64,000 bases of DNA from Rhodospirillaceae bacterium. GTDB taxonomy: Bacteria > Pseudomonadota > Alphaproteobacteria > UBA828. The position numbers were made by a program, and so were the translations under genes. The notes below the pieces were generated by a model. The model was not told the DNA's origin. It worked only from the letters and a program-made list of their open reading frames with translations, and did not search any database. Positions 1 through 4,660 of the stretch are shown here, in pieces; position 1 is the first letter of the stretch; every line of letters starts with the position of its first letter. Location: positions 62,001-126,000 of the forward strand of contig PBVE01000005.1 in NCBI GenBank assembly GCA_002728135.1, given 5' to 3'.

Positions 1-2
1 TA

Positions 3-239
3 GTAGAAAAACTCATGCAAATTTCAGGATGTAAGAAAGAAATTATAATAGAAAACTCTCGTATTAGACCTGAAAAATCTGAAGTTCGTGCTCTTGTCGC
101 TGATTCAAGTAAACTTAAAAAAATAACTGGTTGGAAATGTAACGTAACACTTGATAAAGGGGTTCATCAGACTCTGAATTGGTGGAAATCTAGAACTGAT
201 AACGTAACAATTAGGCGAAACCGAAAATTTGCTAAATAA
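3..239 (+). CDS. Nucleotide-sugar epimerase/dehydratase (SDR), C-terminal end only
   Basis: This is the last 78 or so codons of a gene cut by the left window edge. The frame is open to base 3, so the first ATG at 15 is internal. The visible part (RPEKSEVRALVADSSKLKKI, then GW, then a TLxWWK-like end) matches the C-terminal tail of extended SDR enzymes such as UDP-glucose 4-epimerases and GDP-mannose 4,6-dehydratases. In these the RPxxSEVxxLxxD segment lines the sugar-nucleotide pocket and the Leu-Gly-Trp helix closes the fold. The Rossmann domain and the catalytic Tyr-Lys lie outside the window, so the substrate cannot be told. It fits the glycan locus to its right. It converges with the regulator gene on the other strand. 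Confidence 0.6.
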   Translation, partial: VEKLMQISGCKKEIIIENSRIRPEKSEVRALVADSSKLKKITGWKCNVTLDKGVHQTLNWWKSRTDNVTIRRNRKFAK

Positions 240-285: not shown

Positions 286-903
286 TTATATCATTATCTC
301 TTTATGTCTAACTGGTAGTAGATCAGGAACAAGAATCCTTTCTGGGGACATGCTATTAACAAGGCATAAATATTTTTTTTCTAAAGATTGTATTTCAGCC
401 AAAATCACAGCATCTATATCTAGATCTGTGTTCATTGACGATATCACTGGTAAACCGTGAAAAGTCTCACCATCATAGTCACTGCATATAACTGCAACTA
501 ATTTTATATCATGTTCTCGTGCATATAAGATTGCTATGTCTGCCAGTTCACTTACACCAGCAATTGCAACCCTGTTCCACCCATTCTTAGCACATAACTT
601 ATATAAATCACTATACTGAACTCTAGCTCTGCGAAAAAAAGAAAATGAGTCTGCAAGAAATTCTGCTGTTAAACGTGTTTTTTCAGTAAAACCTTGAGGT
701 GTTAGATAATATGCATAACGGTTGGGGGGGATTTGTGTAACTTTTATATATCCTTTTCTAACACATCTCTTTATATAGGCATTTGCCATACCGAGAGCTA
801 TGCCCAACTCCGTAGCAAGCTTCCTTTGATTAAGATTTTCTGTTTCGTCGATATGTATTAAGATATCGCGAATGATTTTATTGTCCTTAGTATTTTTGTT
901 CAT
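286..903 (-). CDS. EPS-associated MarR-like winged-helix regulator with Rossmann-like C-domain
   Basis: The protein has about 205 residues if it starts at the ATG at 903. A longer frame reaches 987, but its extra 28 residues are not protein-like and cover an ops element, so I prefer 903. The N-terminal ~95 residues form a winged helix (NQRKLATELGIALGMANAYI, then GYIKV and YYLTPQGFTEKTRLT) like the MarR-type regulators found beside exopolysaccharide loci. The C-terminal ~100 residues (WNRVAIAGVSELADIAILYA, then GLPVIS) resemble the small Rossmann domain of PglD-type sugar enzymes and could bind a nucleotide ligand; that is inference. It is divergent from the phosphonate operon, and two palindromes lie between them. 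No Shine-Dalgarno is visible before 903. Confidence 0.65.
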   Translation of the reverse strand: MNKNTKDNKIIRDILIHIDETENLNQRKLATELGIALGMANAYIKRCVRKGYIKVTQIPPNRYAYYLTPQGFTEKTRLTAEFLADSFSFFRRARVQYSDLYKLCAKNGWNRVAIAGVSELADIAILYAREHDIKLVAVICSDYDGETFHGLPVISSMNTDLDIDAVILAEIQSLEKKYLCLVNSMSPERILVPDLLPVRHKEIMI

Positions 904-934: not shown

Positions 935-946
935 CACGCTACCGCC
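935..946 (-). promoter_or_regulatory. ops (RfaH recruitment) element, exact 12-base match
   Basis: Read on the minus strand this is GGCGGTAGCGTG, identical to the E. coli ops element that pauses RNA polymerase and recruits RfaH through the non-template strand. It lies 31 bases upstream of the preferred start codon of the regulator gene, in the transcribed sense. An RfaH-like gene lies 3.2 kb away. A chance 12/12 match in either strand of 64 kb is unlikely, and less likely still in AT-rich DNA. The match and position are seen; function is inferred. Confidence 0.6.
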
Positions 947-1027
947 AATCTGGGTGAAAGCCCAATATAGCATTCTCCCAGTATCATTAGTGATTCAGTA
1001 GTTTAATAAATCGAATCGATGGGAATT

Positions 1028-1042
1028 GTTCATAATATGAAC
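1028..1042. promoter_or_regulatory. Palindromic operator-like site 1
   Basis: GTTCATAATATGAAC has perfect 7-base arms around one central base. It is the reverse complement of the second site at 1060-1074, with centres 32 bp apart, about three helical turns. Dimer-sized palindromes of this kind are what a MarR/wHTH dimer binds, and the divergent regulator is the obvious candidate. Confidence 0.55.
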
Positions 1043-1059
1043 GATAATGCAACCTTTAT

Positions 1060-1353: not shown

Positions 1354-2979
1354 ATGGTGAATATTGACAAAGCAGCAAAACTTAAAACCCTGCTAAAATC
1401 TAAAGATCTAACCTTTATTATGGAAGCTCATAACGGACTCTCCGCTAAGATTGTAGAAGAAGTTGGATTCCAAGGTATCTGGGCCTCAGGCTTATCAATG
1501 TCAACTGCATTGGGAGTTAGAGATAATAACGAAGCATCATGGACACAGGTTCTAGAGCAGCTTGAGTTTATGGCTGATGCCACATCTATACCTATTCTTG
1601 TTGACGGAGATACAGGTTATGGAAACTTTAACAATGTTCGCCGTTTAGTGGCAAAACTCTGTCAAAGGGATATAGCTGGAGTTTGTATTGAAGACAAATT
1701 ATTTCCAAAAACTAACTCCTTCATAGGAGAAAGTCAGCCACTAGCAGAAGTAGATGAATTTTGCGGTAGAATAAAAGCTGGGAAAGATACACAGAGTAAT
1801 TCAAATTTTTGCCTAGTTGCACGTGTAGAAGCATTAATCTCGGGTTGGCCTATGGAAGAAGCACATAAACGGGCAACTGCTTATGATGATGCTGGAGCAG
1901 ATGCTATACTGATACATTCAAAGAAATCTGATGCTAATGAAGTTATTGAATTTGCTTCTGCTTGGAATGGAAATGCACCATTAATAATTGTCCCAACTAT
2001 GTACTATAAGACTCCTACTGAAACTTTTCGAAATACCAAAATATCAACAATAATCTGGGCAAATCATAATATGAGAGCTGCAATTTCCTCCATGCGGAGG
2101 ATAAGCAAAATAATTTTTGACGAAAAATCCTTAGTTTCAGCTGAAGAGGAGATTGTTTCTGTTAAAGATGTATTTTCTCTAATGGAGCAAAAAGAGTTAG
2201 CTGAAGCAGAAAAGAAATACTTTAAGAGCACAGAAAAAGAAATAAGAGGAATTGTTTTAGCCGCAACTCAGGGAACTAAACTAGGCCCACTTACGAATGA
2301 TATTCCTAAATCTATGGTTGATGTTAGAGGAAAACCCCTCTTGGAACGCTTAACCAAAACTCTCAATGATTGTGGAATAAAGAATATTAGTGTGGTCTGC
2401 GGATTTAAAGCTGAGACCGTAAATATTAAAAATATTAATAAGGTTGAAAACTCTGATTATTCAGATACTGGTGAGGTAACCTCATTAATCTCAGCTATTG
2501 AAAATCTCTCTGGGCCTTGCATATTAACTTATAGAGACATTCTCTTCAGACCCTATATATTAGAGTCACTTCTCGCAGTAGATGGAGACATTGTTTGTGC
2601 TATAGACTCGATGTGGAAAAATATCGAGTTTCGTGATCCAAATAGAAATGCCGATCTCGTTAGGTGCTCTATACAATATACGGGGACGTATCTTGAAGAC
2701 GATACAACCCAAATTTTAAATTTTTTACCAAACAATAATAATTGTGATGCAGATGGTGAATTTATTGGTCTATTAAAACTTAGCGAAGTTGGCACTAAAA
2801 TAATTAAATCCAAACTAGATCAAGTTAAAAATAGTAAAGAATTTAAAAGTGCCGACCTGCCATACCTCTTGCAACAACTTATAGATGAAGGTAAATGCGT
2901 TAAGGGTCATTACTTTTCAGGACACTGGCTTGATTTAGATGATGCCTTTGACCTTGCCCGAATGAGAAACATGGTCTAA
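1354..2979 (+). CDS. pepM: PEP phosphomutase fused to a nucleotidyltransferase
   Basis: This 541-residue protein has two domains. Residues ~1-290 are phosphoenolpyruvate mutase, which makes phosphonopyruvate, the entry step to C-P compounds. The hallmark [10 protein letters not shown] (113-122) matches the PepM signature EDKxxxxxNS that separates mutases from isocitrate-lyase relatives, and the metal-binding DGDTGYG is also present. Residues ~299-541 are a sugar-nucleotidyltransferase-like domain ([13 protein letters not shown], then [15 protein letters not shown]), as in the PntC cytidylyltransferases that activate phosphonates. Its signature is altered: LAAGxGxRL reads LAATQGTKL. The phosphonopyruvate decarboxylase gene follows 22 bases downstream, so the two are surely one operon. 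The end product is not shown, because no aminotransferase or dehydrogenase for phosphonoacetaldehyde is in view. Confidence 0.88.
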
Positions 2980-3001
2980 GACCAAGATATGTTCGGAGGT
3001 T

Positions 3002-4141
3002 ATGATGATTTCTGCTGATGAGTTTTTGAATCCAGCAACAGAACTTGGTTTCAATTTTTTTACTGGGGTTCCCTGCTCATTCTTAACACCAATAATTAAT
3101 AAAGTAATTTCTGATAAATCCATAAATTATTTGCCTGCAACAAGTGAAGGAGAGGCAGTTTCTATAGCTGCTGGTGCATGGCTAGCAGGAAAAAAAACAA
3201 TAGTCATGTGCCAAAATTCAGGGCTAGGAAATACAGTAAACCCACTGACTTCACTTAATTATACTTTCAAAATTCCTACACTTCTTTTGGTGACTTGGCG
3301 AGGAGAACCAGGACAAAAAGATGAACCCCAACATGAATTAATGGGAGAGATAACACCCCAGTTACTTAATACAATAAAAATACCTTTTGAGTTATTTCCA
3401 AATAAACCAGAATTAATTCCTGAAGTTCTTCTTAAAGCAACGAGTCATATGAATAAAACAGATACTCCATTTGCATTACTGATGAAGAAAGGTAGTGTAA
3501 TTGATGATGGACTCAAAAACCCTTTACCCAAGCCAAAACTTCCAAATTATAAAATAAAAACTTCTGTATATAAAATAAATCTTACAAGAGCAAAAGCACT
3601 AAGAATTAGTCTAAAATATATCCCAAAGACTACCTCGATTATTGCTACAACGGGTAAAACTGGCCGTGAGCTTTTTACCATTTTAGATCAACCTCAGAAC
3701 TTTTATACTGTGGGATCCATGGGTTGTGCTAGTGCCATTGGGCTTGGTCTTTCAGTAAATACTTCCAAACCTGTGATAGTAATGGATGGTGACGGTGCTG
3801 CTCTGATGAAAATGGGAAATATTGCAACAATAGGTCACCACAGACCAGAAAATTTCGTACATTTGTTACTCGATAATGGAGCTCACGATTCTACAGGGGG
3901 ACAAAAAACTGTCTCTGAGAACGTTGACTTTTCTGAAATTGCCAATGCATGTGGATATTCTTCGTCAAGAACCTGTTACTCTGAAAATTGTTTAAAAGAT
4001 GGATTACTTTATGCATTCCAAAACAAAGGTCCACATATGATTCATGTAAAAATTCTAACTGGATCAATTGTTAATCTCGGAAGACCAACGATTAAACCAA
4101 ATGACGTTGCCCGACGTTTCAGAAAATTTGTTAATAAATAA
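3002..4141 (+). CDS. aepY: Phosphonopyruvate decarboxylase (ThDP-dependent)
   Basis: It decarboxylates phosphonopyruvate to phosphonoacetaldehyde, the step that pulls the unfavourable PEP mutase reaction forward. The protein has 379 residues, typical of the family. The conserved cofactor Glu is in LPATSEGEAVSIAAGAWLAG. The ThDP/Mg motif begins with GDG at 263-265 and continues through LLLDNGAHDSTGGQ. GGAGG at 2995-2999 fits the second ATG at 3005 (5-base spacing) better than the first at 3002. It follows pepM closely. Taurine/sulfopyruvate decarboxylases are related, but the PepM neighbour settles the substrate. Confidence 0.9.
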   Translation: MMISADEFLNPATELGFNFFTGVPCSFLTPIINKVISDKSINYLPATSEGEAVSIAAGAWLAGKKTIVMCQNSGLGNTVNPLTSLNYTFKIPTLLLVTWRGEPGQKDEPQHELMGEITPQLLNTIKIPFELFPNKPELIPEVLLKATSHMNKTDTPFALLMKKGSVIDDGLKNPLPKPKLPNYKIKTSVYKINLTRAKALRISLKYIPKTTSIIATTGKTGRELFTILDQPQNFYTVGSMGCASAIGLGLSVNTSKPVIVMDGDGAALMKMGNIATIGHHRPENFVHLLLDNGAHDSTGGQKTVSENVDFSEIANACGYSSSRTCYSENCLKDGLLYAFQNKGPHMIHVKILTGSIVNLGRPTIKPNDVARRFRKFVNK

Positions 4142-4162: not shown

Positions 4163-4660
4163 TTAAATCGCCGTTAAGTCTTGACTTGAGACAGAAGTCC
4201 TAACGTCTCTTCCCATAAGGTTAAGCAATACTAGAGCTCTTTCCGTATCTGATTCTATATGAAATACTGCCTCAAGATTAGAAAATGGACCAGCAGTTAT
4301 TATAACCTTCTCTCCTTTTACAAACTTTTTAGATTTAAGTTCAAAAATTCCATCATCACCTGCTCGACTTTTAATTCCTTCAACAACTTTATCATCTAGT
4401 TTATAGGGGCCATCTTTATCACCAACCATATTAGAAACGCCATAAGTTGAGAATATGACACGCCAAGGTTCATCTATTATGTTTACTCGAACAAAAATAT
4501 ATCGAGGAAACAATGGCTTCATTACTATCTCTTGTCTTCCAGCATGCCGGCGTTTTTTTCTATATTCAGGAAACCACACATCAAAGCCCTGACGCAAAAG
4601 GTTATCCTTTGCTCTTAGTTCTCCATTTGCGTGTGTGTGAACAACATACCAATGTTTCAT
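4163..4660 (-). CDS. rfaH: RfaH-like transcription antiterminator (NusG paralogue)
   Basis: The protein has 165 residues, close to E. coli RfaH (162). It has an N-terminal NGN domain (MKHWYVVHTHANGELRAKDN, then PLFPRYIFV) and a C-terminal KOW domain. The latter reads GEKVIITAGPFSNLEAVF, then LLNLMGRDVRTSV, close to the RfaH C-domain rather than to housekeeping NusG. RfaH proteins load on RNA polymerase at ops and let it read through long surface-polysaccharide operons; the C-domain also couples ribosomes. It lies inside the glycan locus on the opposite strand, converging with the decarboxylase gene (21-base gap). A perfect ops sequence lies at 935-946. The symbol reflects family, not proven orthology. 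Confidence 0.8.
   Translation of the reverse strand: MKHWYVVHTHANGELRAKDNLLRQGFDVWFPEYRKKRRHAGRQEIVMKPLFPRYIFVRVNIIDEPWRVIFSTYGVSNMVGDKDGPYKLDDKVVEGIKSRAGDDGIFELKSKKFVKGEKVIITAGPFSNLEAVFHIESDTERALVLLNLMGRDVRTSVSSQDLTAI

Follow-up and report, generated by a model that had tools for sequence, protein, structure and literature searches.

In bacteria, recruitment of a specialized NusG paralogue by a DNA signal is known in detail for Escherichia coli RfaH alone, and how paralogues encoded in operons are recruited has been called unknown (PMC7593976). A leader in which a stem-loop precedes the RfaH signal, ops, has been described as JUMPstart (Rfam RF01707) and is listed for the gamma-Proteobacteria (PMC2864571); our literature search turned up nothing on ops in Alphaproteobacteria apart from the phylogeny of PMC7593976. 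Here we analyse a 64,000-nucleotide (nt) stretch of an alphaproteobacterial genome (hereafter, the window), in which minus-strand positions 935–946 form a functional-looking ops element, as judged from sequence, in a conserved hairpin–ops leader that would belong to an RfaH-type system.

The ops element and its leader

A direct read of the window and a motif scan both show that the minus strand at 935–946 is exactly GGCGGTAGCGTG, the E. coli ops, carried on the non-template strand. It ends 31 bases before the regulator start codon (ATG, 903–901), and the next-best matches in the window have two mismatches. These points agree with a previous sequence-only reading of this DNA, which proposed an exact E. 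coli ops 31 bases ahead of a regulator gene and no second full copy in the window. The uniqueness extends to the 2.14-Mb genome, where 935–946 is the sole site with at most one mismatch to the 12-mer; composition predicts 0.0007 exact copies per window and 0.022 per genome. The same reading also noted that the regulator has no visible Shine–Dalgarno sequence. The observation is correct but carries no weight, because most window genes lack a strong one (6 of the 36 open reading frames of at least 250 amino acids have it), and we dropped it as a sign of RfaH-type ribosome recruitment.

The elements of the leader and the gene that follows it are, in transcriptional order:

1060–1074, no strand assigned: operator 1 (predicted), GTTCATATTATGAAC, upstream of the regulator −35 and shortly before the divergent promoter at 1082–1109
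1025–1052, minus strand: candidate regulator promoter, −35-like TTGCAT (1052–1047) and −10-like AACAAT (1030–1025), a weak match
1028–1042, no strand assigned: operator 2 (predicted), GTTCATAATATGAAC, between the regulator −35 and −10
950–981, minus strand: RNA hairpin from aligned contexts and folding, 5′ arm CTGGG (981–977), 3′ arm CCCAG (954–950)
935–946, minus strand: ops element, GGCGGTAGCGTG, identical to E. coli ops, its 11-mer invariant in family leaders
286–903, minus strand: MarR_EPS-like regulator (PF13412; TIGR04176, 59 bits), its start backed by in-frame stops in relatives' leaders

Regulator orthologues were assembled from nine genomes of the family, the window bacterium's own included. 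All nine carry GGCGGTAGCGT at 40–115 nt upstream, with G at position 12 in four (the exact 12-mer) and C in five. The sequence-only reading had named conservation of the 12-mer upstream of orthologous regulators as its check, which the site therefore passes, give or take the last base. In E. coli, C at position 12 abolishes the U11 pause and leaves recruitment intact (PMC5995543). The family leaders vary from 28 to 61% GC and in length, and their flanks are poorly conserved around the invariant 11-mer; common to all nine are GTTC-N7-GAAC palindromes, the TTG of the −35, the motif CACC[C/T][G/A]G and ops. With operators and a conserved TTG on its 5′ side, a start codon on its 3′ side and an unconserved reading frame, 935–946 has the setting predicted for a leader element.

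The stem lies directly 5′ of ops, with arms CCGGG(U)/(A)CCCGG in relatives, CTGGG/CCCAG in the window and CACCCGG(AC) as the usual 3′ arm. Summed over 41 non-redundant sites, the stem score reaches 671.5, compared with 502.6 ± 14.9 when shuffling is confined to the part 5′ of the final 14 nt. Complementary arms covary in distant loci, being GGCGG/CCGCC in G183, CTCGGG/CCCTGAG in L182 and GTTTGG/CCAAAC in L187. Both the minimum free energy and the centroid structure of the window leader contain the hairpin, although total leader folding energies are just mildly below those of shuffles (z about −1.4 to −2.2).

Upstream of the hairpin lie a weak promoter and palindromic operators of the form GTTCA-N5-TGAAC. 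A generic promoter scan called the divergent promoter at 1082–1109 and four other, chance-level sites and did not call the regulator promoter, which we therefore infer; the TTG of its −35 is kept in all nine family leaders. Each of the 79 class-wide loci carries GTTC-N7-GAAC ahead of the regulator, usually as pairs about 22–24 bp apart (32–34 bp in the own family), and the strict GTTCA-N5-TGAAC occurs at two places in the own genome, both of them here. Palindromes in the regulator's own promoter are the arrangement of a MarR-type autoregulator, to which this protein would conform, and GTTC-N7-GAAC is the predicted binding site of a little-studied regulator family. The conserved hairpin and operators had been overlooked by the sequence-only reading, which had correctly paired ops with an RfaH-like gene.

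The target operon and its neighbours

Three genes flank the regulator in the window:

1–239, plus strand: 3′ part of the gene for a LegB-like NAD-dependent 4,6-dehydratase (L092, 6194–7240; TIGR04180, 407 bits, cut-off 475)
1354–2979, plus strand: PEP mutase carrying a fused nucleotidyltransferase domain (TIGR02320, 385 bits; PF13714, PF12804), divergent from the regulator
3002–4141, plus strand: phosphonopyruvate decarboxylase (TIGR03297, 433 bits), in one operon with the mutase

The divergent operon (1354–4141) encodes phosphonate-glycan precursor genes, is kept in the family and shares its operator region with the regulator. From this arrangement, the regulator probably controls both its own gene and the mutase–decarboxylase operon.

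In several relatives, the regulator is followed by structural genes. Open reading frames in GC-rich relatives were screened by codon-position GC and family models, as antisense frames are present. The regulator overlaps or abuts rmlB, followed by rmlA, in G004, G006 and G014 (rmlB matching TIGR01181 in G004 and G014); G009 has rmlB and then a broken rmlA, and in G002 the same-strand run of regulator, rmlB and rmlA extends into further glycan genes. G010 retains operators, hairpin and ops intact, but of its regulator just a short piece is left ahead of a structural operon; a genome completeness of 67% limits the weight of this case. Three genomes, those of the window species, G001 and G016, lack rmlBA here; their regulator stands by itself, facing a convergent LegB-like gene, and the window genome has rmlB elsewhere. 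The sequence-only reading had the antiterminator driving a regulator in place of a long structural operon. As worded, that proposal is not supported, given the regulator–rmlB–rmlA order in relatives and the polysaccharide operons that ops usually heads across the class. It holds literally just for the derived form; a transcript limited to the regulator is a locally derived state. The broader proposal, an ops/RfaH-like pair in a regulator leader of an alphaproteobacterium, is supported by the conserved leader and the nearby paralogue, from which we infer pausing and recruitment.

The LegB-like gene stands between the regulator and a further minus-strand operon to the left of the window (L092, 287–6066), which encodes an APS kinase, ATP sulfurylase, pyruvate kinase, a sulfatase-family protein and a DegT aminotransferase. 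Conceivably, the leader serves this operon, and not the regulator, through long antisense read-through of the convergent gene: no terminator-like site lies between the regulator and that gene, minus-strand sulfate-activation and sugar genes come after it, and E. coli RfaH shields untranslated RNA from Rho. Against this, about 1.2 kb of antisense transcription would be needed, and the operon could have its own promoter in the 128 bp that separate the divergent legB-like and APS-kinase genes; we consider read-through unlikely.

Class-wide linkage and the RfaH-like paralogue

A scan based on the regulator alignment yielded 80 loci in alphaproteobacterial metagenome genomes, a few records bearing other taxon labels. 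In nearly all of them an rfaH-like gene follows the regulator within about 15–110 bp, and the hairpin–ops usually lies 75–130 bp downstream of that gene, at the head of a polysaccharide operon. The first genes after ops encode mainly sugar or polysaccharide functions, such as DegT aminotransferase, 4,6-dehydratases, epimerases and glycosyltransferase. Of 66 testable loci, 31 carry the core GCGGTAGC and 27 the full KGCGGTAGCNTG downstream of rfaH, on its strand and no more than 260 bp away; the other 39 lack the full motif in this interval. Across the 80 loci, the density of KGCGGTAGCNTG is 1.59 per kb in this interval versus 0.0045 elsewhere, and reversed or shuffled 8-mers show no comparable enrichment there. 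The order seen in the window, ops before regulator, is found in its own family and in L159, L178 and G183.

Linkage extends to whole genomes. A site model (R1) was run on 191 genomes with a match threshold of E up to 0.0021, and of the 30 genomes that matched, 28 have an RfaH-like paralogue, versus 26 of the 161 that did not (Fisher 2e-16; 9e-14 excluding the own family), an association that is partly circular because R1 was trained on regulator-linked sites. Its informative part is the matches away from the regulator, together with the near-absence of matches in paralogue-free genomes.

Other arrangements were also seen. Ops leaders without an adjacent regulator exist, those in G055 and G168 having the same operators; the leader is apparently a portable cassette, because an operator pair plus hairpin–ops heads regulator-less operon starts in L241 and L242. 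G187 has two rfaH-like genes (C9:42562–43194 and C3:349037–349685; L244, L245), each followed at about 130–145 bp by its own hairpin–ops and a sugar-nucleotide gene. L165 and L188 have the order rfaH-like gene, regulator, ops, with different sequence upstream of ops, which may be a gammaproteobacterial version.

The paralogue of the window is encoded 3.2 kb from ops:

4163–4660, minus strand: RfaH-like NusG paralogue (specialized NusG), from PF02357, TIGR01955 (129 bits), homology to E. coli RfaH and an AF2 model

Among NusG-type NCBIfam models, RfaH (TIGR01955) is its best match, with 129.4 bits over residues 4–162, below the equivalog cut-off of 144.5, and it is homologous to E. coli RfaH across residues 1–161, bearing out the earlier statement that it is RfaH-like over its whole length. 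In E. coli RfaH, K10, H20, R23 and R73 contact the ops bases (PMC5995543). The paralogue has H10, N20, R23 and Y73 at these positions, so that three of the four differ; the pocket residue Q24 is also kept. Among class-wide RfaH-like proteins, R23 is found in 61 of 77 and Q24 in 71 of 77, position 20 is H (about half) or N, and position 73 is mostly hydrophobic. AF2 predicts the C-terminal domain as a β-barrel (pLDDT 90), not the autoinhibitory helical hairpin, in one alignment-driven prediction with which fold switching is still compatible; the best whole-length RfaH structure match of the model is the fully recruited state, 8phk.

A 2026 preprint reports constitutive activity, and a location within or close to operons, for homologues predicted in the fully recruited state (PMC13015549). 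The predicted β-barrel would suit such operon-adjacent homologues without a need for ops, and thus the idea that the leader works on its own as an RNA or pause element (an attenuator, or a consensus pause responsive to NusG or NusA) beside which the paralogue loads non-specifically in cis. Ops-like sequences strongly pause diverse RNA polymerases (PMC7593976), and the hairpin is as conserved as ops. Yet C3, G4, G5, A7 and G8, which E. coli RfaH needs, are dispensable for pausing (PMC5995543), and GCGGTAGC is invariant in 45 of 45 aligned contexts while the pause-relevant positions 10 and 12 vary. The strong co-occurrence of motif and paralogue also speaks against a self-standing element, and we regard it as quite unlikely. 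If the paralogue is constitutively active, a strictly conserved ops beside such a protein would be unexpected and worth testing.

The regulator itself scores 59.3 bits against TIGR04176, below the cut-off of 88 for curated MarR_EPS members. It shares with that family a winged-helix N-terminus and a polysaccharide-cluster context, and differs in about 100 extra residues that form a second domain. Its AF2 model (pLDDT 90) combines a winged helix with a long helix and an uncharacterized C-terminal α/β domain (286–600, about residues 107–200), confidently folded and without a clear solved relative, which is a candidate ligand-sensing domain on the basis of the model. A plasmid search returned only distant regulators.

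Mechanism and comparison with known systems

Two further readings are rejected, each with negligible probability. In one, the site is part of the coding sequence of a longer regulator that would start at 987; the sequence-only reading had named conservation of this long form as refuting its own ops proposal. The frame is open in the window species, but it is not conserved: G001, G004, G003 and G006 have stops in this frame between ops and ATG, and the ops–ATG spacing varies out of frame. Elsewhere, the same hairpin–ops lies between genes. A chance 12-mer without function is refuted by the 11-mer upstream of nine of nine family regulators, at a site with 0.022 copies expected in the genome; raw 12-mer counts in the 191 genomes do not exceed a control pattern in large, GC-rich relatives, so it is sequence context, and not the 12-mer alone, that carries the argument.

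In the reading that we favour, and consider probable, 935–946 serves an alphaproteobacterial RfaH/ops system as its RNA polymerase loading signal and lies in the leader of a regulator-first operon. This reading would tie the observed sequence, conservation, leader architecture, hairpin signal, rfaH linkage and operator conservation into one course of events, whose pausing, recruitment and direction of regulation are predicted from sequence. The regulator would bind the two GTTCA-N5-TGAAC operators and control initiation at its own promoter. Polymerase transcribing the leader would then pause at ops, with the hairpin forming just behind it; the RfaH-like paralogue would bind the exposed non-template ops strand and displace NusG, and polymerase, probably with a first ribosome, would proceed through the operon. 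The ancestral operon would have comprised the regulator and sugar-nucleotide genes. Because the regulator alone remains on this strand before the convergent gene, the loop may now mainly gate the regulator itself. Three altered ops contacts of four, the predicted β-barrel C-terminal domain and C at position 12 in five of the nine family leaders count against the favoured reading.

More tentatively, the leader may be a portable two-gate device, in which an operator pair read by a MarR_EPS-like regulator governs initiation and hairpin–ops governs elongation, closed in the window lineage into an RfaH–regulator loop. Its details are just as speculative: the RfaH-like protein might have an altered ops pocket, possibly without fold-switch autoinhibition, and the second gate might throttle the regulator of the first.

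Alphaproteobacterial hairpin–ops elements beside rfaH-like genes offer a natural target set for studying the evolution of ops recognition, autoinhibition and operon choice, and the window family illustrates how a leader of this kind may come to govern mainly a regulator. Naming an operator for this widespread and little-studied family of regulators also makes it possible to predict whole polysaccharide regulons.

Compared with the enterobacterial RfaH/ops system, this locus has the identical 12-base ops in a leader, polysaccharide genes and a NusG paralogue of the RfaH kind. Enterobacterial rfaH is remote from its targets, whereas here the rfaH-like gene adjoins the target in most loci; the ops contacts and the predicted C-terminal fold differ as described above, and class-wide the first ops base is G or T and base 10 is free. 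JUMPstart has the same order of stem-loop and ops in polysaccharide-cluster leaders, whereas the hairpin here is (U)UCACCCGG-based, and the RF01707 covariance model matched neither the window leader (to E = 10) nor six class loci (at the gathering threshold). As with UpxY, LoaP and TaA, a specialized NusG is encoded at the operon that it probably serves; unlike in those systems, a conserved sequence that would act as its recruitment signal is visible here.
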